NCBI GenBank assembly: GCA_025352915.1
Contig: JANXSA010000192.1
Span: 1-23,133 of the forward strand
DNA length: 23,133 bases
DNA from: Rhodospirillales bacterium
Lineage (GTDB): Bacteria > Pseudomonadota > Alphaproteobacteria > Acetobacterales > Acetobacteraceae
Reading direction: 5' to 3'
A program made the position numbers and the translations under genes. Of the stretch, positions 1 to 23,023 are shown in pieces (the first letter of the stretch is position 1; every line of letters begins with the position of its first letter). The notes under the pieces were generated by a model. It was not told where the DNA came from and did not search any database. It saw only the letters and a list, made by a program, of their open reading frames with translations.

Positions 1-298
1 CCACGCCCACCAGCGCCGCCGGCAGAAACGCCAGCACGATCGCAATGGCAAAGTGCCGCGCCGCGGGATCGCGCGGCAGCCCCACCAGCACCGCGAACAA
101 CCGCTGGAAATACAGCACCACCACCGCCAGGATCGCGCCAAGCTGGATGGCGATCTCGAAAACCCGCCCCGGCGGTCCCTCGAAGCCGAGCACCGCCTCC
201 ATCAGGATCAGATGCCCGGTCGACGAGACCGGGATGAATTCAGTCAACCCCTCAAGCACGCCAAGTAGCACGACCTGTAGCCAGAGCATGTGTTCCAT
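1..298 (-). CDS. uppP: Undecaprenyl-diphosphatase UppP (BacA family), N-terminal part
   Basis: UppP is an integral membrane enzyme that dephosphorylates undecaprenyl diphosphate to the monophosphate, recycling the lipid carrier of peptidoglycan and surface polysaccharide. Only the first 99 codons lie in the window; the 3' end is beyond base 1. The protein opens MEHMLWLQVVLLGVLEG and continues with the family's first conserved motif, LEGLTEFIPVSSTGHLIL (about residues 15-32), which carries the Glu-rich and SSTGH active-site elements. A second hydrophobic stretch, FEIAIQLGAILAVVVLYFQ, follows. The ATG at 298 was chosen; an in-frame ATG at 289 is also possible. It begins 9 bp after the stop of the upstream flippase gene on the same strand, so the two probably form one transcript. 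The family call is firm from the motif; the missing part cannot be judged. Confidence 0.93.
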   Translation of the reverse strand, partial: MEHMLWLQVVLLGVLEGLTEFIPVSSTGHLILMEAVLGFEGPPGRVFEIAIQLGAILAVVVLYFQRLFAVLVGLPRDPAARHFAIAIVLAFLPAALVGV

Positions 299-307
299 CC
301 CAGCGGC

Positions 308-1828
308 TTAGCGCAGCCGCAGCGCCAGGACCACCCTCGCCACCAGCGCCTGCCGCTCCGCCGCACCAAGCCCATGGCGCCAGCCGAACCAGATCGCCGG
401 CAGCACCAGCGCCGGCGCCGCGGCGACCCGCAGCAACGGCGCCGCCTCGGCCAACACCAACGCCGCGCCAAGCCCGCCCATGGCAGCCACCAACGCCGGA
501 CCCAGCGCGCGCAGTTCAGCGGCCAGCGGCGGATGCACCACGACCGCAAGCCGCGCCCGCACCACCGCCACCAGCAACGCCCGGCCGGACCAGACCATCG
601 CCGCCCCGCCAATCCCCCAGCCATCGAGCGCCACCAGCAGCACCGGCAAATAAAGCGCCAGTTCCGCCACCGCCAACCCCGCATTGCGCCCCGCCCGCCC
701 GGCCCCGTCGATCACCGCCGCCGCCACCCCGTCCACCGCGAACAGCACCACCCCGGCGGCCAGCCAGCGCATCGGCACCGCGCCAGCACCGGCAAATTCC
801 GGCCCCAGCCACCACCCCAGCAGCACATCGGCAAACAACACACAGCCCATGCAGGGCGGCAGCACCAGGACCAGAATACCCAGCACCGCATGGCGAAACA
901 GTCGCCCCGCCGCCTCCGGCGCGCGCCCCGCCCCCATGGCCCCCGCCCCCATGGCCAACGCACTGGCCAGCGCCGGAAACACCCCGGCCAGCACCGCCTG
1001 CCCCAGCACCGCCACGCGGATCACCAAGTCGAACGGAGTCGCGTACAGCGCCGCCGCCTCGGCCGAAATCCGCGCGGCGATGATGAAGCGATCCAGATGC
1101 TGCGCCAGCGGCCCCAGCAGATGCGACACAGTCAGCCAGCCGCCCTGGCGCAGCAGCACCAAGGCGGCCGGCCAGTCAGGCCGCGCCCGAAGCAGTTCCG
1201 GCAACGCCGCCACGCCAAGCCGCCAATACGCCCACGTCATCGCCGCCCGGCACGCCACCAGCACCAGCGTCGCGGCAATCAGGCTGTCCCAAATCTGCAA
1301 CACCGCCAGCGGCCCGAGATAATACAGCGCCAGGATCGGCAGATTGACCAGGTTGGCCCCGGCAAAACGCTGATGCGCCGCCAGCACCCCCCACAGCGCC
1401 GCGTTCACCAGCACCAGCGGCGCGGCCAACGCCAGCACCAACAGCGCCCACCGAACCTCGTCGCGTAGCGCCGCCGGCAGATCGAGCAGACCGGCATAGC
1501 CCCATGCGCCAGCCGCGGCGGCCAGCCCTGCCACCCCCCCCAGCCCCGCCAGCAGCGCAAGCCCGGTCATCACCGCCGCCGCCGCACCCGCCCGATCCGG
1601 CCCGGCAATCCGCGCCGCCACCAGCCGCGTCAGCGCCCGCCCGATCCCCAAGTCGAACACGCCGAACAGCCCAACCAGGCTGAGCGCCAACGCAAAAATG
1701 CCCCACCGCGCCAGTCCCAGCGCCCCCACCAGGAACGGCGTCGCCGCCACCGCCACAACCAGCGGCAAGACCCGCCCGGCGAGGTTCCACAGCGTTGAAC
1801 GGATCAGCGTGGCGCTGCCGGTCAGCAC
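308..1828 (-). CDS. Wzx/MATE-like polysaccharide (oligosaccharide) flippase
   Basis: A 506-residue, almost entirely hydrophobic protein with about 12 or more membrane segments, the size and layout of the MOP superfamily flippases (Wzx, RfbX, MurJ relatives). The N-terminus, with IRSTLWNLAGRVLPLVVAVAA then PFLVGALGLARWGIFALALS and GVFDLGIGRALTRLVA, is the typical opening of polysaccharide biosynthesis proteins: a conserved first helix, the LG.ARWG loop and the DLG.G.ALTR element. Such proteins move undecaprenyl-linked sugar units across the inner membrane. The start is a GTG at 1828 without a clear Shine-Dalgarno. The gene runs directly into uppP with a 9-bp gap. Coupling a flippase with the phosphatase that recycles its lipid carrier is metabolically sensible, but this is inference. 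Which glycan it moves cannot be told; no glycosyltransferases are in the window. Confidence 0.82.
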   Translation of the reverse strand: MLTGSATLIRSTLWNLAGRVLPLVVAVAATPFLVGALGLARWGIFALALSLVGLFGVFDLGIGRALTRLVAARIAGPDRAGAAAAVMTGLALLAGLGGVAGLAAAAGAWGYAGLLDLPAALRDEVRWALLVLALAAPLVLVNAALWGVLAAHQRFAGANLVNLPILALYYLGPLAVLQIWDSLIAATLVLVACRAAMTWAYWRLGVAALPELLRARPDWPAALVLLRQGGWLTVSHLLGPLAQHLDRFIIAARISAEAAALYATPFDLVIRVAVLGQAVLAGVFPALASALAMGAGAMGAGRAPEAAGRLFRHAVLGILVLVLPPCMGCVLFADVLLGWWLGPEFAGAGAVPMRWLAAGVVLFAVDGVAAAVIDGAGRAGRNAGLAVAELALYLPVLLVALDGWGIGGAAMVWSGRALLVAVVRARLAVVVHPPLAAELRALGPALVAAMGGLGAALVLAEAAPLLRVAAAPALVLPAIWFGWRHGLGAAERQALVARVVLALRLR

Positions 1829-2027
1829 GGCGGGCCGGGTTCGGCAGCATTATTCAGGGCTTGTGGCCCCCGCACTTCCCCCTTAGCGTTCGATTCCAGT
1901 AGCCTTGCACCACGTGCAGAACGAATCGGCGCCACCGGCCCGCTCCGGGGAAGCCAGAATTCCGGGGGGAAACCGTGACGAGACGGCAACCGAGAGTCAT
2001 GTCCGCGCATCCAGCGAGCGTCCGGCG

Positions 2028-2876
2028 ATGAGCGCCGCCGCGCAAGCGCTAAATCCGGCCACCCCAGGCTCTCCGATGGTGGCGGCCCCGATGGCTGGTG
2101 CTTTAATGCGGGTCGACGGCGTGGAGATGCGCTTCGGCGGCATCGTCGCCCTGGCTGGGGTGAGCTTCGATGTCGGCCACCGCGAGATATGCGGGCTGAT
2201 CGGCCCGAACGGCTCCGGCAAGACCACTATGTTCAACTGCATCAGCGGATTCTACCGCTACACGGTCGGCGACATCAGCTTCGAAGGCACGTCGCTGAAG
2301 GGCCTGCCGCGCCATCGCATGATCGAACTCGGCATCGGCCGCACCTTCCAGAACGTCGCGTTGTTCCGCAGCATGACGGTGCGCGACAACATGCTGGTCG
2401 GCTACCACTTCCGCGGCCACACCGGCTTCCTCGCCAACGCGCTGCGCCTGCCGGCGACCCGCCGCGAGGAGGCCGAGGCCGGCCGCCGCGCCGACGAGCT
2501 GATCGACCTGCTGGAACTGCGCGACCAGGCCAACCTGCCGGTCGGCGGCCTGCCGTTCGGCTGGCAGAAGCGGGTGGAACTGGGCCGCGCCCTGATCGCC
2601 GGCCCGCGCATCCTGCTGCTCGACGAACCCGCCGCCGGGCTGAACCACGGCGAGGTCGACGAACTCGGCGAACTGATCAAGCGGCTGCGGGCGCATTTCG
2701 ACCTCAGCATCCTGCTGGTCGAACATCATATGAGCTTGGTGATGCGCGTGTCGGACCGGGTGGTGGCGCTCGAATTCGGCCGCAAGATCGCCGACGGCAC
2801 CCCCGACCAGGTCCAGCGCGACCCCGAAGTGATCCGCGCCTATCTCGGCGACGGTGATGAGGCTCCCCATGGCTGA
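2028..2876 (+). CDS. livG: Branched-chain/hydrophobic amino acid ABC transporter ATPase, LivG type
   Basis: First ATPase of a HAAT-family importer. With the ATG at 2028 it has 282 residues. Walker A GPNGSGKT is at 59-66, a signature-region motif LPFGWQKRVELGRAL starts at 175, Walker B ILLLDEPAAGLN is at 195-206, and an H-loop VEHHM follows. The inserted region GYHFRGHTGFLANALRLPATRREEAE between the Q-loop and the signature is typical of LivG rather than LivF. The start is uncertain: ATG at 2106 (MRVDGVEMRFGG) gives 256 residues, closer to the usual family length, and the extra N-terminal 26 residues are low complexity. The signature departs from LSGGQ, a variation known in LivG-like ATPases. 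It overlaps livF by 8 bp (ATGGCTGA). A conventional cytoplasmic energy-coupling subunit; the substrate cannot be deduced. Confidence 0.93.
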   Translation: MSAAAQALNPATPGSPMVAAPMAGALMRVDGVEMRFGGIVALAGVSFDVGHREICGLIGPNGSGKTTMFNCISGFYRYTVGDISFEGTSLKGLPRHRMIELGIGRTFQNVALFRSMTVRDNMLVGYHFRGHTGFLANALRLPATRREEAEAGRRADELIDLLELRDQANLPVGGLPFGWQKRVELGRALIAGPRILLLDEPAAGLNHGEVDELGELIKRLRAHFDLSILLVEHHMSLVMRVSDRVVALEFGRKIADGTPDQVQRDPEVIRAYLGDGDEAPHG

Positions 2877-3594
2877 TACAATTACCGAAAAGCCAATCCT
2901 GGAGGTGCGCGGCCTGCACGCCGGCTACGGCCAGGTGAAGGTGCTGCACGGCATGGATTTCGTCGTCAACACCGGCGGCGTCACCGCCCTGCTCGGGGCC
3001 AACGGTGCCGGCAAGACCACCACCCTGCGCGCGATCAGCGGCATGGTGCGCACCACCGGTGACATCCTGTACGACGGCGAGCGCATCAATGCGCTGTCCA
3101 CCGAGGCAATCGCGGCGATGCGGGTGGGCCATGTGCCGGACGGCCGCGGCACCTTCATGGAACTGACCGTCGAGGAAAACCTCAAGCTCGGCGGCTACAC
3201 GCGGCGCGACGATACCGCCGCCGATCTCGAGCGCATCTGCACCTACTTCCCCAAGCTGAAACAGCGCTTCCGCCAACAGGCCGGCACGCTGTCCGGCGGC
3301 GAGCAACAGATGCTGGCGATCGGCCGCGCCCTGATGATAAAGCCGCGGCTGCTGCTGCTGGACGAGCCGTCCTTCGGCCTTGCCCCGCTGATCGTGCGCG
3401 AGATTTTCGAGATCATGCGCCAGATCATCATCAGCGAGCGCACCTCGATCCTGCTGGTGGAACAGAACGCCTCGCTGGCGCTGACCATCGCGGACATGGC
3501 CTATCTGCTGGAAACCGGCCGCATCGTGATGTCCGGCCCGGCCGACGAAATCCGCCGCGACGAGTCGCTGCGCCGTTCCTATCTCGGCTATTAG
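2869..3594 (+). CDS. livF: Branched-chain/hydrophobic amino acid ABC transporter ATPase, LivF type
   Basis: Second ATPase of the importer, 241 residues from the ATG at 2869 (MADTITEKPILEVRGLHAGYG). Walker A GANGAGKT is at 43-50, the ABC signature LSGGEQQM at 141-148, Walker B LLLLDEPSFGLAP from 161, and the switch region LLVEQNASLAL follows. The Q-loop area VGHVPDGRGTFMELTVEENL is the characteristic LivF form. An in-frame ATG at 2854 would add five residues, but the overlap ATGGCTGA with the livG stop favours the later start and suggests translational coupling. It forms a heterodimer with LivG on the cytoplasmic face of LivH/LivM. The C-terminus ends RSYLGY, usual for the family. No oddities seen. 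Confidence 0.95.
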   Translation: MADTITEKPILEVRGLHAGYGQVKVLHGMDFVVNTGGVTALLGANGAGKTTTLRAISGMVRTTGDILYDGERINALSTEAIAAMRVGHVPDGRGTFMELTVEENLKLGGYTRRDDTAADLERICTYFPKLKQRFRQQAGTLSGGEQQMLAIGRALMIKPRLLLLDEPSFGLAPLIVREIFEIMRQIIISERTSILLVEQNASLALTIADMAYLLETGRIVMSGPADEIRRDESLRRSYLGY

Positions 3595-3604
3595 GGAGAA
3601 GCCG

Positions 3605-4477
3605 ATGGAAGGCGTCCTGCATCAGATCGTCTCGGGCATTGCGACGGGGGGCATCTATGCCTCGATCGCGCTGGCCCTGGTGATGATCTTCCTGGCCACC
3701 CACCACATCAACTTCGCCCAGGGCGAGATGGCGATGTTCTCAACCTACATCGCCCTGACCCTGTTGCAGCTCGGCCTGCCATACTGGGCGGCGTTCCTGG
3801 CCACGCTGGTGTTCTCGTTCGTCATGGGCGTGATCCTGCAACGGATACTGCTGGAACCGCTGGCCAACGCCCCGGTGCTGGCCTCGGTCGGCGCCTTTCT
3901 CGGGTTGTTGCTCATTTTTAACAACGTCGCCGGCTGGCTGTTCAGCTACACGCTCAAGCCGTTTCCCTCGCCCTTCGGCGTTGGCGACCCGATGTTCGGC
4001 GGCATGTTCTCGCGCCATGAACTCGGCTCCACCGTGGTGACGATGGCGGTGCTGTTGTCGGTCTGGGCGTTCTTCCGCTTCACCCGGCTCGGCCTGGCGA
4101 TGCGCGGTGCGGCCTACAACCCGGTCTCCAGCCGCCTGGTAGGCGTGCCGGTCGGGCGCATGCTGGCCCTGGGCTGGGGGCTGGCCGCCGGGATCGGCGC
4201 GATTGCCGGCATGATGGTGGCGCCGGTGGTCTTCCTCGACCCCAACATGATGGGTGGCGTGCTGCTGTATGCCTTTGCCGGGGCACTGCTGGGCGGCATC
4301 ACCAGCCCGCTGGGTGCCGTGGTCGGCGGGGTGATGATGGGCGTGATCGAGAACCTCGCCGGCGCCTATGTCGTGGGTACCGAACTGAAGCTGACCACCG
4401 CGCTGGTCATCATCGTGCTGGTGCTGGTGGTCAAGCCTTCCGGGCTGTTCGGCAAAGCCCTGGCGAGCAGGGTCTAG
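3605..4477 (+). CDS. livH: Branched-chain/hydrophobic amino acid ABC transporter permease, LivH type
   Basis: A 290-residue inner-membrane permease. It opens with the LivH hallmark IVSGIATGGIYASIALALVMIF, followed by HHINFAQGEMAMFSTYIA, where NFAQGE is the diagnostic LivH motif. Several hydrophobic helices follow, with the EAA-like cytoplasmic loop around FTRLGLAMRGAAYNPVSSRLVGVPV (about residues 160-184). The closing FAGALLGGITSPLGAVVGGVMMGVIENLAG is conserved in the family. It starts 10 bp after livF with a good Shine-Dalgarno (AGGGAG at about 3594-3599). It pairs with LivM to form the membrane pore. The stop is 3 bp before livM. Confidence 0.95.
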   Translation: MEGVLHQIVSGIATGGIYASIALALVMIFLATHHINFAQGEMAMFSTYIALTLLQLGLPYWAAFLATLVFSFVMGVILQRILLEPLANAPVLASVGAFLGLLLIFNNVAGWLFSYTLKPFPSPFGVGDPMFGGMFSRHELGSTVVTMAVLLSVWAFFRFTRLGLAMRGAAYNPVSSRLVGVPVGRMLALGWGLAAGIGAIAGMMVAPVVFLDPNMMGGVLLYAFAGALLGGITSPLGAVVGGVMMGVIENLAGAYVVGTELKLTTALVIIVLVLVVKPSGLFGKALASRV

Positions 4478-9750: not shown

Positions 9751-10617
9751 TCAAGCGATCTGCAAATTCTGCACCGCCGCCTCAAGCTCCTGAAACGATG
9801 GCATGTGCTGGTTCGGTGCCATCTTGCGCCCCGACTCGACGCTGACCTGCGGCGCATTGCCATGCAGATGCGCCACCAGCACGGCGCGGATCACGTCATA
9901 GAACTTCGACTCCTCCTCCACCACGCCCTTCAGCCGCGCCGCACACGGCCCCACCATCCCATACGCCAGCAACACCCCCATGAACGTGCCAACCAGCGCC
10001 CCGCCGATCATGCCGCCCAGCACCGCCGGCGGCTCGTTGATCGACGCCATCGTCTTGATCACGCCAAGCACCGCCGCCACGATCCCCAGCGCCGGTAGCG
10101 CGTCGGCGATGCTCTGTAGCGCGTGCGAGCCATGCAACTCCTCGGCAAGCGTTTTCTTCAGCTCGCGCAGCATCAGATCCTCGATCTGGTTCGGATCGTC
10201 GGCGTTCATGCCCACCATGCGCAGATAGTCACAAACCATGGCGGTGGCATGATGGTTCTTCAGGATCTTGGGGAATTTCTGAAATGCCGGGCTGTCCTCC
10301 GGCTTTTCGATATGCGCTTCCAGCGCCATCGCGCCCTTGGTGCTGGCCAGCCGGACGAAGAAGTACAACAGGCTCAGCAACTCGATGTAGTCCGCCTTCT
10401 TGAACACCGCACCCTTCATGATCTTCCCGAAGCCGTGCACCGTATGCTTGATGTCGTACATGCTGTTGGACATCAGAAAGATGCCAATGGCGGCCCCGCC
10501 GATCGACCAGGTCTCGAACGGCAAGGCGTTCATGATGGCGCCGAACTTGCCGCCATGGACGACATAGCTGCCGAAGACGCAGAACAGCAGAAAACCAAGT
10601 CCGCCGATTACCAGCAT
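9751..10617 (-). CDS. motA: Flagellar motor stator protein MotA
   Basis: A 288-residue inner-membrane stator subunit that, with MotB, conducts protons and drives flagellar rotation. Two N-terminal helices (about residues 2-20 and 35-50) and two C-terminal helices (about 172-192 and 199-222) surround a cytoplasmic domain. The functional prolines are present: Pro174 in ADALPALGIVAAVLGVI and Pro223 in YGMVGPCAARLKG, matching the two conserved prolines of E. coli MotA. The cytoplasmic charged residues that contact FliG are plausibly Arg89 in FVRLAS and Glu100 in AMALEAH. It follows motB after 41 bp on the same strand, so the order is motB-motA. Downstream is a strong hairpin repeat. No other flagellar genes are in the window. 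Confidence 0.96.
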   Translation of the reverse strand: MLVIGGLGFLLFCVFGSYVVHGGKFGAIMNALPFETWSIGGAAIGIFLMSNSMYDIKHTVHGFGKIMKGAVFKKADYIELLSLLYFFVRLASTKGAMALEAHIEKPEDSPAFQKFPKILKNHHATAMVCDYLRMVGMNADDPNQIEDLMLRELKKTLAEELHGSHALQSIADALPALGIVAAVLGVIKTMASINEPPAVLGGMIGGALVGTFMGVLLAYGMVGPCAARLKGVVEEESKFYDVIRAVLVAHLHGNAPQVSVESGRKMAPNQHMPSFQELEAAVQNLQIA

Positions 10618-10658
10618 GGCACGGCCCTATCCGTAAATGACGAGAACGGTGAAGAAAC

Positions 10659-11774
10659 TCACGGCGTGATCCGCGTTTCGCGCAGCACCGTGATCGCAAT
10701 CCGCCGATTGGCCGCCGCAAACGGCTCGGCCGGCAACAGCGGATCGCGATCCGCATTCCCGGTCACGCTGCGCAGCCGCGTCTCGTCCACCCCCTGCTCC
10801 ACCAGCAACCGCCGCGTCGCATTGGCGCGCTCGGAGGACAGCTCCCAGTTGCTGCGGTCGTTGCCGCGAAACGGTGTCGAGTCGGTGTGGCCGGAAATCG
10901 ACAGCTTCTCCGGCATCCGCGCGATCACCGGCGCGATCTTCATCAACAGCGCCCGCGCCCGTTCATGCAGCACCGACGAGCCGGTCGCGAACATCGGCAC
11001 CCGCTCCTCGTCCAGCAGCTGGATGCGCAGCCCCTCCGGCGTCTGGTCGATGGCGATCTGGGCGGCCAGCTCGCGCAGTTGCGGGTCGTTGCGCACGGCC
11101 TCGCGGATCTGCTCGGCCGCCTGCTCGAACGCCTCGCGCTCGCGCCGCTCGATCTCCGCGCGCATCGCCGCATCGTCGATCGGCCGTGCCGGCGCCGAGG
11201 GCGTATTCACCCCGGACCCCGCATTGGCCAGCCGCGCCGCCTGGCCCAGCGCCTGCGCCTGAATCTGCGCCGGTGTCGCGGCAGTTCCCCCGCCGCCCGC
11301 CTGCCGCCCGGCCTGCTGGCTCGCCCGCGTGCCCCGCCCGCCGCCGGCATCGGCGTCCTTGCCCTCCGGCTTGCGCTGATCCTCGGCCGCTCCGCGCGTG
11401 CTCGAATTCGGCGCCTGGTCAAATTCCGGATCGTCCTGGTCGTTGGATTGCTCGGCCCGCCCCGGCACCACGCTCTGCGCGCCGCGGTCGCTGACCATCT
11501 CGCCGCGCTCGAACGGCGTCCGCCCGCCAAAAATCCGCCCGTTGCCGGACGAGCCCGAGCTCAGCACATTGGTCGGGGTGAAATAATCCGCCAGCCCCCG
11601 GCGCTGCTCCTCGGTGGTGGCATTCAACAGCCACATCAACAGGAAGAACGCCATCATCGCGGTGACGAAATCGGCGTAGGCCACCTTCCAGGCGCCGCCA
11701 TGATGGCCGCCTGCGATGATCTCCTCTTTCTTGATGATGATCGGACGGCCCTTGCCGCCCTGCTTGCCCGCCAT
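10659..11774 (-). CDS. motB: Flagellar motor stator protein MotB, peptidoglycan-anchored
   Basis: A 371-residue stator anchor. A Lys-rich N-terminus leads into the single helix WKVAYADFVTAMMAFFLLMWLL, with the proton-accepting Asp35 (Asp32 in E. coli). The helix is followed by the plug-like stretch NATTEEQRRGLADYF. Residues of roughly 75-225 form a long Gly/Ala/Arg/Gln-rich, low-complexity linker with charged helical parts (RAEIERREREAFEQAAEQIREAV). The C-terminal OmpA-like domain, from about 245, carries SISGHTDSTPF (His296, Asp298) and NWELSSERANATRRLL, the peptidoglycan-binding signature. The protein is longer than the roughly 310-residue E. coli MotB because of the linker. It is the first gene of a motB-motA pair, an inversion of the common order. 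Confidence 0.96.
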   Translation of the reverse strand: MAGKQGGKGRPIIIKKEEIIAGGHHGGAWKVAYADFVTAMMAFFLLMWLLNATTEEQRRGLADYFTPTNVLSSGSSGNGRIFGGRTPFERGEMVSDRGAQSVVPGRAEQSNDQDDPEFDQAPNSSTRGAAEDQRKPEGKDADAGGGRGTRASQQAGRQAGGGGTAATPAQIQAQALGQAARLANAGSGVNTPSAPARPIDDAAMRAEIERREREAFEQAAEQIREAVRNDPQLRELAAQIAIDQTPEGLRIQLLDEERVPMFATGSSVLHERARALLMKIAPVIARMPEKLSISGHTDSTPFRGNDRSNWELSSERANATRRLLVEQGVDETRLRSVTGNADRDPLLPAEPFAAANRRIAITVLRETRITP

Positions 11775-19247: not shown

Positions 19248-21106
19248 ATGACCGCCGGCCGGCTGCTACAGATCGATCCCGAGGACCGGCGCACGCCCAA
19301 GGAACGCGCGCCCAAGGAAAAGGAGCGCAAGCCGCGCCGCCGCGGCTGGAAGCTGTTCGTGCTGCGCTGGTTGATCGTGCTGGCGATCTGGGGTGTGCTG
19401 ATGGCCGGCCTGGTGCTGCTGGTCTTCGCCTGGGATTTGCCGCGCCCCACCTCGGCACTGGACGCCGCCCGCCGCCCCAGTGTCATGCTCCAGGACTCCG
19501 CCGGCGGCATCGTCACCACCTACGGCGACCTCGTCGGCGAGCCGCTGCGCCTGGGCGACATGCCGCGCTATCTCCCGGCCGCCGCCGTTGCCGTCGAGGA
19601 CCGGCGCTTCTACAGCCATGCCGGGCTCGATGTCATTGGCATTGCGCGGGCCATCTGGGTCAACCTCCAGGCCGGCCAACTGGTCCAGGGCGGCTCCACC
19701 ATCACCCAGCAAGTGGCGAAAAACCTGTTCCTGACCAACGCCCGCACCTTCCGCCGCAAGGTCCAGGAGGTGCTGCTGACGCTGTGGCTGGAACGTCAGT
19801 TCAGCAAACAGGAGATCCTGGAGATCTGGTTGAACCGGGTCTATCTCGGCTCCGGCGCCTTCGGTGTCGATGCGGCGGCCCGCGTCTATTTCGGTGTTTC
19901 CGCCCGCCAGGTGAACCTCTGGCAAGCCGCCGTGCTGGCCGGCATTCCCCGCGCCCCCTCGCGCATCAACCCGCGCGTCAATCCCGCGGCGGCAGAGGCG
20001 CGCGGCCGTGAAGTGCTGGCCGCCATGGCCGAGACTGGCGCGATTGGGGCCGAGCTGGCGCGTATCGCCGCCGGCAGATTGTCTTTCCCCCCCGCGCCTC
20101 GCGCGCTGCCGGCTGGTTCAGCGACTGGGTGGTGGAACAGGCCGAAACCCTGCTGCCCGACGGGGCGGATGCCGTGATCCGCACCACGCTGGACCCTCGT
20201 CTGCAGGCCATCGTCGAAACGCGCCTCAGAACCCTGCTCGACGGCCCCGGGGCGGAGGCTGGCGTGGGGCAGGGGGCCGTGGTGGTGCTGGACGCCCAGA
20301 CCGGCCAGGTGCGCGCCCTGGTCGGCGGCCGCGACTATCGCACCGGACCGTTTAACCGCGCGGTCGTGGCCCGCCGCCAGCCTGGCTCGGCGTTCAAGCC
20401 CTTTGTCTGGCTTGCCGCCATCGAGGCCGCTGGCGTCCGCCCGGACGACTTGGTGCTCGACGCCCCGATCCGCCGCGGAACCTGGTCCCCCGCCAATTTC
20501 GACGGCAAATTCCGTGGCGAAATCTCCGTCGAGGATGCCCTCGCCCACTCCATCAACACGGCCGCCGTCCGCCTGCTGATCCATGCCGGCGGCCCGCGCG
20601 CGGTCGCCCGCGTCGCCGCCCGCCTCGGCATCGCCGACCCCCTGCCCAACAACGAATCCCTCGCCCTGGGCACCGCCGAAGTCGGCCTGCTGGAACTCAC
20701 CGCCGCCTACGCCAGCTTCTTCAACGGCGGGCTGCGGATCACGCCGGCCGCCATCGAATCGGTCCAGGCCGAACGCCGCACCATCGCCGTCACCCGCGCG
20801 GCGCCGGCCCGCGTCCTCGACCCCGACCACGCCGCGATGATGGCCCGGATGCTCGCCGCCGTCGTTTCCCGTGGCAGCGGCCGCGCCGCCGCCAGCCCCG
20901 GCCGCCTGGTTGCCGGCAAGACCGGCACCACCCAGGATTTTCGTGATGCCTGGTTCATCGGCTGGCTCGATTCCGGCCGCGGCGGCGGGAGGATGATCGG
21001 CATCTGGCTCGGCAACGACGACAACCGCCCGATGGACCGCGTTACCGGCGGCAGCCTCCCCGCCCGCCTGTTCGGCGATATCGCCCGCGACATCGGCGCG
21101 AACTGA
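19248..21106 (+). pseudogene. Class A penicillin-binding protein (PBP1-type), split by a -1 frameshift
   Basis: A bifunctional peptidoglycan glycosyltransferase/transpeptidase that would be 619 residues if intact. The first part (frame from 19248) has a basic N-terminus, a membrane helix (about 38-62), the glycosyltransferase Glu117 in VAVEDRRFYSHAG, GGSTITQQVAKNLFL, and WLNRVYLGSGAFGVDAAARVYFG. After residue 282 the frame should shift by -1 at a C7 run (20087-20093): reading on gives a false tail ending at 20177, while the -1 frame continues RASRAAGWFSDWVVEQAE without a gap into the transpeptidase. There SAFK (Ser381, Lys384), SIN (435-437) and KTGT (from Lys558) are all intact. The downstream frame alone starts at a GTG (20129) and would lack the membrane anchor. 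A one-base loss (C8 to C7), a sequencing error or ribosomal slippage are all possible. Confidence 0.88.
20087..20093 (+). other. C7 homopolymer at the frameshift site
   Basis: The run reads TTC CCC CCC G in the upstream frame, so the last seven C form a possible slippery heptamer C-CCC-CCC. Re-reading from the last C gives an uninterrupted family-like sequence. I see no clear Shine-Dalgarno-like stimulator just upstream; the GC-rich downstream bases could fold but I cannot compute it. Confidence 0.6.
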
Positions 21107-21137
21107 TCTCCCCATTGCCAGGTCGCCGTTGGCGTGT

Positions 21138-21152
21138 TGTTATAGTATAACA
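21138..21152 (+). promoter_or_regulatory. Zur box (zinc-repressor operator)
   Basis: TGTTATAGTATAACA is a perfect 7+7 palindrome with one central base. It is identical at every fixed core position to the Zur operator core of E. coli (TGTTATANTATAACA) as I know it. It lies 21 bases before the ATG of the outer-membrane protein gene, after the stop of the PBP gene, and contains TATAGT/TATAAC, likely the -10 of the promoter. A given 14-base match is expected about 0.0001 times in this window, even less in GC-rich DNA. The downstream ZnuA-type gene agrees with zinc control. Confidence 0.85.
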
Positions 21153-21173
21153 TACGATCCCGGAGGCCCCAAA

Positions 21174-22115
21174 ATGCTCCCCCGCGTCACACTCCTCATC
21201 GCCCTGGTGCTGCCCCTTCCCGCCGCGGCTCAGCTTTTCGACCAGGGCCGCGTTCCAACCCGCGACTTCAAAAGCCCCGACATGGCGGCCCAGGCCAGCC
21301 ACGGCATCGAAAGCGAAAACCTCTTCGGCCTCACCCTCGGCTCCGACATCGACGGCCCCGGCAGCCGCGCTGCCGCCCTCGAAATCAACAGTCGCATCGG
21401 CGCCCGCATCGGCGCCCGCTCGGACCGCTACGCCGCCACCGGCGCCAAGCTCGAATTCGCCTATGGCGCCACGGAAAAACTTTCCATCGCCGGCAGCGTG
21501 CTCGCCGGCTGGCGCAACAGCAGCAACGTCCCCGGCCAGGCCAACCTCAACGCCCCCACTCTTAACGCAATAGCCTTCGACGGCGTTGGGGCCGAACTGC
21601 GCTGGCGCTTCCTCGAACGCGGCCCCTCCCCCGTCGGCGTCACCCTGCACATCGAGCCCTCGCTGCGCGTCACCGACGAACGCACCGGCGAACGCGGCCT
21701 CGGCTGGGCCTTCGAAAATCGCCTGATCGCCGACACCGCCCTCATCCCCGACAAGCTCTTCACCGCCGCCAACCTGATCTACGACATCGAATCCTTCCGC
21801 CCGAAAGGCAGCCCCCTCGAACGGGCCTCCACCGCCGGCATCTCCACCGCCATGACCTACCAGGTCCGGCCCGGCCTCTTCCTCGGCGCCGACATCCGCT
21901 ACCTGCGCGCCTATGAAGGCCTGGCGCTCGACAAATTCCGCGGCTGGGCCATCTTCGCTGGCCCCACCCTCTTTTGGCACGCCACCGACAACATCTGGCT
22001 CTCCGCTACCTACGCCTTCCAGATTGCCGGCCGCGAACGCGGCACCACCGACACCTACGACCTCGGCAACTTCCCGCGCCAAATGCTGAAGTTCAAAATC
22101 GGCATGGAGTTCTGA
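21174..22115 (+). CDS. Outer-membrane beta-barrel protein, putative Zur-regulated channel
   Basis: A 313-residue exported protein that I do not recognise by name. Start ATG 21174 has GGAGG 7 bases upstream. The signal peptide MLPRVTLLIALVLPLPAAAQ is followed by a mature protein of alternating polar/hydrophobic strands (KLEFAYGATEKLSIAGSVLAGW; AELRWRFLE; VGVTLHIEPSLRV; GLFLGADIRYLRAY; ATDNIWLSATYAFQIAG) and ends KFKIGMEF. The terminal Phe is the usual BAM-targeting signature. I count roughly 10-14 strands by eye. There is no TonB box or plug domain, so it is not a ZnuD-type receptor. It is the first gene behind the Zur box and is followed at 2 bp by the zinc-binding protein gene. An outer-membrane zinc channel or sensor is inferred; a general porin or structural barrel is the alternative. 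Confidence 0.82.
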   Translation: MLPRVTLLIALVLPLPAAAQLFDQGRVPTRDFKSPDMAAQASHGIESENLFGLTLGSDIDGPGSRAAALEINSRIGARIGARSDRYAATGAKLEFAYGATEKLSIAGSVLAGWRNSSNVPGQANLNAPTLNAIAFDGVGAELRWRFLERGPSPVGVTLHIEPSLRVTDERTGERGLGWAFENRLIADTALIPDKLFTAANLIYDIESFRPKGSPLERASTAGISTAMTYQVRPGLFLGADIRYLRAYEGLALDKFRGWAIFAGPTLFWHATDNIWLSATYAFQIAGRERGTTDTYDLGNFPRQMLKFKIGMEF

Positions 22116-22117
22116 CC

Positions 22118-23023
22118 ATGCGCCTTACCCGCCGCGCCGCCCTTGCCCTCCTCCTCGCCGCCCCCGCTTCCGCTCAACCCACCCAAAAACGCGTCGTCGC
22201 CAGCTTCTCCATCCTCGCCGACATGATCAGCCGCGTCGGCGAATCCCGCGTCACAATCCGCTCCCTCGCCGGCCCCGACCAGGACCTGCACAGCTACGAA
22301 CCCCGCCCCTCGGACATCCAGGCCGTCGCCCAGGCCGACATCATGGCCATCAACGGCCTCGGTCTCGAAGGCTGGGCCGACCGCATCGCCGCCGCCGCCG
22401 GCTTCAAAGGCACCGCCATCGTCGCCAGCAAAGGCATCCCCGCCCTCAAATCCGCCCACACACACGCTCCCGGCCAAGCCCACGCCCATGGCGCCTTCGA
22501 CCCCCACGCCTGGCAAGACGTCGCCAACGCCCGCCGCTACGTCGCCAATATCCGCGACGGCCTCATCAAAGCCGATCCCGCCAACACCGCCGCCACGACC
22601 GAAGCCGCCGCCCGCTACACCGCCGAACTCGACGCCCTGGACGCCGAAATCCGCGCCCTCCTCGGCCCCATCCCCCGCGCCCGCCGCCGCGCCGTCACCT
22701 CCCACGAAGCCTTCGCCTACTTCGCCGACGCCTACGACATCGACATGCTCGCCATCACCGGCACCTGGCGCGACGCCGAACCCTCCGCCCGCGAACTCGC
22801 CGCCCTCGCCGCCCAAATCAAACGCCAAAACATCCGCGCCCTGTTCCTCGAAAACACCAGCCCCCCAGCCAGCCTCCGCGCCCTGGCCAGCGAAACCAAA
22901 ACCACCATCGGCGGCCGCCTCTACAGCGACGCCCTCTCCGCCCCCACCGGCCCCGCCGGGTCATACATCGCCCTGATGCGCCACAACGCCCGCACCATCG
23001 CGGCGGCGCTGGCGGACGGGTAG
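22118..23023 (+). CDS. znuA: Zinc ABC transporter substrate-binding protein, ZnuA-like
   Basis: A 301-residue cluster A-I (ZnuA/TroA/MntC) metal-binding protein. The start MRLTRRAALALLLAAPASAQ is a signal peptide with twin Arg. The likely ligands are His58 in DQDLHSYEP, His130 in FDPHAWQD, His196 in VTSHEAFAYF, and Asp271 in GGRLYSDAL. A short His-rich loop (HTH at 114-116 and HAH at 122-124) lies just before the second ligand, as in ZnuA; its modest size leaves room for manganese-binding relatives, but the upstream Zur box favours zinc. It begins 2 bp after the barrel gene's stop, with GGAG 8 bases ahead inside that gene, so the two are co-translated. The ZnuB/ZnuC partners are not in the window; the next bases are a hairpin repeat. 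Confidence 0.93.
   Translation: MRLTRRAALALLLAAPASAQPTQKRVVASFSILADMISRVGESRVTIRSLAGPDQDLHSYEPRPSDIQAVAQADIMAINGLGLEGWADRIAAAAGFKGTAIVASKGIPALKSAHTHAPGQAHAHGAFDPHAWQDVANARRYVANIRDGLIKADPANTAATTEAAARYTAELDALDAEIRALLGPIPRARRRAVTSHEAFAYFADAYDIDMLAITGTWRDAEPSARELAALAAQIKRQNIRALFLENTSPPASLRALASETKTTIGGRLYSDALSAPTGPAGSYIALMRHNARTIAAALADG

Follow-up and report, generated by a model that had tools for sequence, protein, structure and literature searches.

A predicted Zur-box-linked, outer-membrane barrel-like protein encoded next to an AztC-like metal-binding protein in alphaproteobacteria

To our knowledge, TonB-dependent receptors aside, little is known about how zinc passes through the outer membrane. 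For manganese, MnoP of Bradyrhizobium is induced by limitation of the metal and is TonB-independent. The available text on MnoP describes an outer-membrane metal-ion channel of 675 aa with a Brucella-Rhizobium-porin-like part (PMC6011978, PMC4827864). It is, like the barrel proposed here, an alphaproteobacterial outer-membrane metal channel, but it carries manganese, and we rejected an identification of our barrel as MnoP because of its length (313 aa versus about 675 aa) and its lack of a Porin_2 match. MspD of Mycobacterium smegmatis, as described in the accessible part of its report (PMC13098993), is a porin that both zinc starvation and deletion of zur induce and that supports ZnuABC importers. 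MspD shares with our barrel a proposed place in the outer membrane under zinc-starvation/zur control; however, it is a mycobacterial MspA-type porin, whereas our barrel matched no PDB chain beyond chance, and that part of the report describes no bicistron with a binding protein of the kind found here. ZnuD and the Zur-controlled TonB-dependent receptors of Caulobacter (PMC4176598, available portion) exemplify Zur-controlled outer-membrane zinc import, as proposed for our locus, but ZnuD-type proteins are large plug-and-barrel receptors (685-aa model), and a TonB-dependent zinc receptor of this type was set aside as a candidate since the 313-aa barrel matches no such receptor model. In Paracoccus, aztA lies under a 15-bp palindromic Zur motif and aztABCD are clustered (PMC5387054, in the text available), whereas the AztC-like binding protein studied here (265 bits) follows a barrel gene, with the znuCB genes of its relatives located elsewhere. 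The accessible part of a review of Zur regulons lists numerous TonB-dependent receptors and, as the single porin name, oprD (PMC6103462). Zur-controlled outer-membrane import and metal-induced channels are already known kinds; what is new in the locus described here is the protein family, the fact that it is repeatedly paired with a binding protein of zinc type, and the occurrence of relatives beside other metal importers. Our literature search, of partial coverage and with most subscription journals outside it, returned no mention of DUF6662, the family to which the barrel is distantly related, and no description of a barrel-znuA unit.

The window, that is, the whole 23,133-nucleotide stretch analysed, is an entire contig (C61, G000:C61) of a 3.84 Mb assembly that consists of 749 contigs and is 69% complete. 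Our best reading of its last genes, with a rough probability of 0.68, is that they would encode a Zur-controlled, TonB-independent zinc channel feeding a co-made binding protein. The barrel gene starts at an ATG at 21174, 21 bases 3' of a palindrome, and stops at 22113-22115 after a final Phe codon; the ATG of the periplasmic binding protein of an ABC importer (hereafter SBP) lies at 22118, 2 bases past that stop (Table 1). The preliminary description had placed a barrel protein with a signal peptide and a C-terminal Phe 21 bases after the palindrome, and this arrangement is borne out, with the signal peptide recognised by reading. It had also placed znuA after 2 bp with its own GGAG site. The spacing is correct and the GGAG exists, but at 22106-22109 it is embedded in the Met-Glu-Phe codons that end the barrel gene; comparable junctions occur in the relatives that were compared. 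The further claim that znuBC are not adjacent is unreadable from the window because the contig ends 110 bases after the SBP gene, but it holds in relatives with longer contigs, where no znuBC lies beside the SBP.

Table 1. Features of the barrel-SBP locus in the window
Feature	Position	Strand	Basis
Predicted Zur box, perfect palindrome TGTTATAGTATAACA	21138..21152	.	sequence reading, shuffle, boxes in relatives
Ribosome-binding site of barrel gene, GGAGG	21162..21166	+	direct reading
Barrel-like outer-membrane protein, 313 aa, distant DUF6662 (PF20367) relative	21174..22115	+	family, alignment
Signal peptide, residues 1-19, probable cleavage after AAA	21174..21230	+	direct reading, predicted
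Mature N-terminal motif FDQGRVPTR (F-x-Q-[GE]-x-V-x-x-R)	21237..21263	+	common to most SBP-linked relatives
GGAG within last codons of barrel gene, probable ribosome-binding site of SBP gene	22106..22109	+	sequence
Periplasmic metal-binding protein of ABC importer (PF01297; AztC-like ZnuA)	22118..23023	+	model matches

The 15-base palindrome is perfect, as had been claimed: direct reading gives two 7-base arms (TGTTATA and TATAACA) that are exact reverse complements around one central G. Shuffling predicts 0.01 occurrences of a TGTTATAGTATAACA 15-mer at up to 3 mismatches in the window, and a search of the whole assembly with TGTTATANTATAACA at up to 2 mismatches recovers this site and one 2-mismatch site, while the reversed control gives 0 matches. 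The strict motif GTTA-N5-TAAC, which is conserved in the Zur sites of many proteobacteria according to the accessible part of the Caulobacter study (PMC4176598), occurs in the window only at 21139-21151. The same motif precedes the barrel in seven of nine family relatives, and L030 and L034 have TGTTATAACA palindromes at that place. A looser box (NN centre, up to 2 mismatches) yields counts that in many of 16 genomes, among them the window's own, do not exceed the reversed control, so weak box matches alone carry little meaning. No sigma-70-like promoter was found at 21060-21200.

Judged by the genes found behind similar palindromes, the palindrome appears to be the Zur box used in this group of bacteria. 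In relatives, Zur-type palindromes precede znuCB, a COG0523 gene (L105, and L107 by eye), a NikA-like SBP (L103) and a ZnuD-like receptor (L108; 225 bits against a cut-off of 950). The Zur-motif genes of Paracoccus likewise include a COG0523 gene, a Ni/dipeptide-type SBP and aztA, in the portion of the study available (PMC5387054). The L103 box (G033:C22, 4038-4052) is a perfect one, and the SBP gene that it precedes is of the NikA/CntA-like family 5, as in the Paracoccus Zur regulon. The window's assembly contains two Fur-family matches. One of them, L046, has Zur as its best NCBIfam model (120 bits, E 6.5e-35, against a Zur cut-off of 167; the next model scores 39) and adjoins a COG0523-type GTPase gene.

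The barrel itself has no significant match in Pfam, NCBIfam, PHROGs or PDB, and sequence and profile searches found PDB chains resembling the barrel family at chance level only. A sequence search returned 78 homologues, and 107 were obtained with a profile. Among 47 aligned relatives, 29 weakly match DUF6662 (PF20367; E up to 0.01, best E 1.1e-8), although the window's own barrel gives no Pfam match; a precomputed DUF6662 domain is present in seven relatives that are 72-82% identical to it, and the one record found bearing the DUF6662 name precedes FMN_bind and ApbE genes. Phenol_MetA_deg and BBP2, matched by three and one of the 47, respectively, are presumably outer-membrane barrel families, and PF02530 (Porin_2) is absent from the three families matched by these members. 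The apparent signal peptide, the C-terminal Phe and the alternating hydrophobic windows along the family alignment are barrel traits, and a rough ad hoc score marks 15 strand-like windows besides the signal peptide, some of them likely false. Sequence pattern and family together suggest that the 313-aa protein is outer-membrane barrel-like.

A conserved motif, F-x-Q-[GE]-x-V-x-x-R, which is absent from the preliminary description, marks the mature N terminus. With V or I at its sixth position, it is found just past the signal peptide in 15 of 17 SBP-linked barrels and in none of 89 others; L307 and L148 do not match it, and the L148 match begins late. TonB boxes lie near the mature N terminus, where this motif also sits. 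The barrel might be a receptor rather than an ion channel, either a surface protein that binds zinc or a port that admits a zinc-zincophore complex, perhaps energised via its N terminus; that some His-rich members read ETVEVR at the motif and that one barrel (L311) shares an operon with a ZnuD-like receptor would fit such a role. We consider it improbable, since the protein is only 313 aa long and QGRVPTR, the window's version of the motif, is unlike a TonB box in our judgement. No TonB-dependent receptor model of Pfam or NCBIfam matches the window's barrel, and none of Pfam matches the 47 aligned members, in agreement with the earlier claim that it has no plug or TonB box. Some members of the family are rich in histidine: 15 of the 78 homologues contain at least 5 His per 40 aa, up to 16, and in 13 of them the stretch precedes the barrel.

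The protein encoded downstream matches PF01297, the family of cluster A-I metal-binding proteins, with 275 bits (cut-off 29). Its best NCBIfam model is AztC (NF040870), but we call it AztC-like rather than AztC because its 265.5 bits are under the 350-bit cut-off; the ZnuA equivalog (NF007091) gives 69.7 bits, under a cut-off of 268. The name znuA given to it earlier is therefore right as to a PF01297 metal-binding protein, but the protein is nearer AztC than E. coli ZnuA. The closest solved structures are 8svc and 5w56; 5w56 and 5w57 we take to be AztC. Three His and one Asp are kept in the SBP alignments, and these are presumably the AztC zinc ligands.

SBPs of this kind also occur alone. 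Among the loci fetched from the window's family, which were drawn from the PF01297 matches listed, many of them best-scoring, and are not a random sample, 28 contain a lone SBP, 17 of these with a box at up to 2 mismatches and none with a barrel. The lone SBP was accordingly rejected as the novelty of the locus. Lone SBPs with a Zur box but no barrel are frequent in the window's family, so the SBP would work without the barrel. The barrel was presumably inserted where a Zur box and a lone SBP of this kind already stood, or it was lost from such a place. The SBP table has 69 rows (of 60 loci fetched, L196 yielded no row). A 58-row set was obtained by removing 12 rows (L003, which duplicates L148; L197; and the low-scoring ZnuABC-type L186-L195) and adding the window's SBP, and the 56-row tree by removing 23 rows and adding nine new SBPs and the window's. 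One 22-row set (SH-aLRT 85) comprises the 17 barrel-linked SBPs of both bacterial families together with 5 lone SBPs. A tree in which the 17 form a single clade is not rejected (p-AU 0.29), the best such tree lying 10.3 log units below the free tree. The SBP tree fits, without proving it, an old cassette that may have moved or descended as a unit.

Linkage of barrel, SBP and box in relatives was checked as the point on which the preliminary description could fail. The barrel turned up in 9 of the 150 genomes searched in the family and in 6 of the 9 searched in the genus, which makes 12 genomes altogether, and the SBP directly follows it in 10 of the 12 (seven of nine in the family search and three more in the genus search): the window's genome, G119, G033, G532, G531 and G535, all of one genus, and G089, G103, G082 and G077. 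Loci L001, L002 and L003 are counted once together with G119, G033 and G532. On the strand of the genes, the box differs from TGTTATANNATAACA by no mismatch in six pairs and by one in three, and is poor in G077; the box of L034 is poor. The two exceptions to pairing are G111, whose barrel is unlinked and has no box, and G078, whose distant member precedes FMN_bind and ApbE genes. Nine of ten pairs are thus boxed within 1 mismatch and the linkage recurs in a second family, which supports the earlier proposal of a zinc-starvation outer-membrane component paired with a ZnuA-type protein, as far as sequence can speak for it. The pairing as an accident of a single genus is rejected, as it spans five genera in the window's family and two more in the second, although kinship inflates the counts: the window's genus contributes 6 of the 10 pairs, and genus g535 contributes 6 of the 7 in the second family. 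A penicillin-binding-protein-like gene lies upstream in five of nine family relatives, each a member of the window's genus, and in none of the seven loci of the second family. Because this neighbour is common only to the five genus mates, the cassette stays together while its surroundings change.

The second family is the Rhodopseudomonas family (that of G506), in which a search found barrel relatives in 195 of 391 genomes. From these 195, 40 loci were fetched, picked as His-rich or multi-copy and thus non-random; 40 loci were also fetched from 35 of a set of 45 barrel-containing genomes, again as a non-random sample. A His-rich barrel is directly followed by an SBP in seven genomes (L305-L308 and L310-L312), and all seven SBP-linked barrels carry the His-rich segment; the two SBPs classified, those of L308 and L312, are AztC-like. 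The upstream palindromes are mostly TGATATA-NN-ATATCA, which we infer to be the local Zur box. No box within 1 mismatch precedes L305 or L306, the box of L311 lies only before the receptor gene, and L309 has a TGTTATA-type box and no adjoining SBP. The His-rich segment bears on another explanation, namely that the barrel is a zinc-starvation sensor, an adhesin or an envelope-remodelling protein that moves no zinc. Genes of other functions do occur in Zur regulons, according to the accessible part of a review (PMC6103462), but a His-rich segment and adjoining metal-binding proteins fit transport better, and we regard such a role as very improbable. At L311 (G1082, 1-3738), a ZnuD-like TonB-dependent receptor gene (255 bits) is followed by the His-rich barrel and the SBP; both kinds of outer-membrane zinc entry are predicted to stand side by side there.

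A quick tree of 106 barrels from 104 loci relates these pairs to the rest of the barrel family. The neighbours of the 106 are a zinc-type SBP in 17, a Mn/Fe-type SBP in 2, a cupredoxin with or without FTR1 in 7, FMN_bind/ApbE in 6 and no marker sought in 74, so metal linkage is not universal in the family. The 17 zinc-type pairs and L309 form one 18-row set (SH-aLRT 94). An SBP lies within 150 bases downstream in 17 of these 18, and a box, taken as TGTTATANNATAACA or TGATATANNATATCA with at most 1 mismatch within 400 bases upstream, is present in 14 of the 18 versus 1 of the 88 others. That one is L313 (G956), whose barrel is His-rich and falls outside the zinc set; it has an exact TGATATATTATATCA palindrome upstream and no adjoining SBP.

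These counts also bear on the idea that the barrel has no zinc-specific function: it would be a general porin, or a structural protein of the outer membrane, that came to lie behind a Zur box and in front of a lone znuA and is co-expressed with the latter. Lone boxed SBPs without a barrel (17 of 28 loci), the 74 barrels without a marker neighbour and the unlinked, unboxed barrel of G111 speak for it. Against it, the pairing persists as the flanks change, recurs in a second family with an extra His-rich segment, and has counterparts in which other family members adjoin other metal importers; we judge it unlikely.

Barrels of this family in L324 (G1119) and L328 (G1027) stand immediately before genes for a Mn/Fe-type SBP (as the L324 SBP is classified), an ATPase and two ABC-3 permeases, a Sit-like arrangement. 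A separate set of barrels (L111, L245, L253, L255, L341) directly precedes a cupredoxin and an FTR1 iron permease, and L318 a cupredoxin only; six of the seven cupredoxin rows fall in one set, and L041 is placed among the FMN_bind rows. DUF6662-like barrels precede FMN_bind and ApbE genes in L035, L040, L042, L043, L044 and L113, loci that may constitute a periplasmic flavin, electron or iron-reduction unit. We consider it conceivable, if somewhat short of probable, that the DUF6662-like barrels are an unrecognised outer-membrane metal-channel family with branches wired to different metal systems: zinc through Zur and an AztC-like SBP in the families of the window and of Rhodopseudomonas, Mn/Fe through Sit-like importers, iron through cupredoxin/FTR1, and FMN_bind/ApbE. 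In the zinc branch, the N-terminal motif, with the His-rich tail in one lineage, would then pass zinc straight to the SBP.

The genes for the importer that the SBP would serve lie elsewhere. Among seven paired genomes searched, five (G119, G033, G089, G077 and G103) encode znuC-znuB at another place under its own box, with no SBP listed beside them. In the other two, the window's assembly and G082 (73% complete), an ABC-3 permease had no match, and the missing match in the former means little because that assembly is 69% complete. In G077, which is 100% complete, PF01297 is matched by the barrel-linked SBP alone, and ABC-3 by the znuB of the boxed operon alone.

Taken as a Zur-controlled zinc channel with its acceptor, the locus would work as follows. 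When zinc is short, Zur would leave the box at 21138-21152, whereas plentiful zinc would let it repress the bicistron. A single transcript would encode both the outer-membrane beta-barrel and the zinc-binding protein of the periplasm, and the second gene would be translationally coupled to the first. The barrel would be a plug-less, TonB-independent channel, presumably zinc-selective, through which zinc ions diffuse; the high-affinity SBP would keep periplasmic free zinc low, draw the flux inward and hand zinc to ZnuCB, made from the second Zur-boxed operon. It is this co-made trap that would let the cell profit from passive entry when zinc is low. A probable role of the conserved mature N terminus, and of the His-rich tail that the second family has as well, is to attract zinc or to dock the SBP at the channel mouth.

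Such a two-gene unit suggests a simple outer-membrane route for scarce zinc, and sister proteins may offer the same to other metals. A small Zur-controlled channel with a periplasmic acceptor, recurring in two alphaproteobacterial families, is a model testable by a single gene deletion. If other branches are indeed used by iron or manganese, a single protein family would account for how several metals cross the outer membrane.

Two further observations concern other genes of the window. The penicillin-binding-protein-like gene upstream of the palindrome (19248-21106) is split over two frames that overlap near 20129-20177; it matches over all 618 aa in the five genus mates compared, and the split is either a frameshift or an assembly error. 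On the minus strand, two frames at 9751-11774 resemble MotA and MotB by eye.
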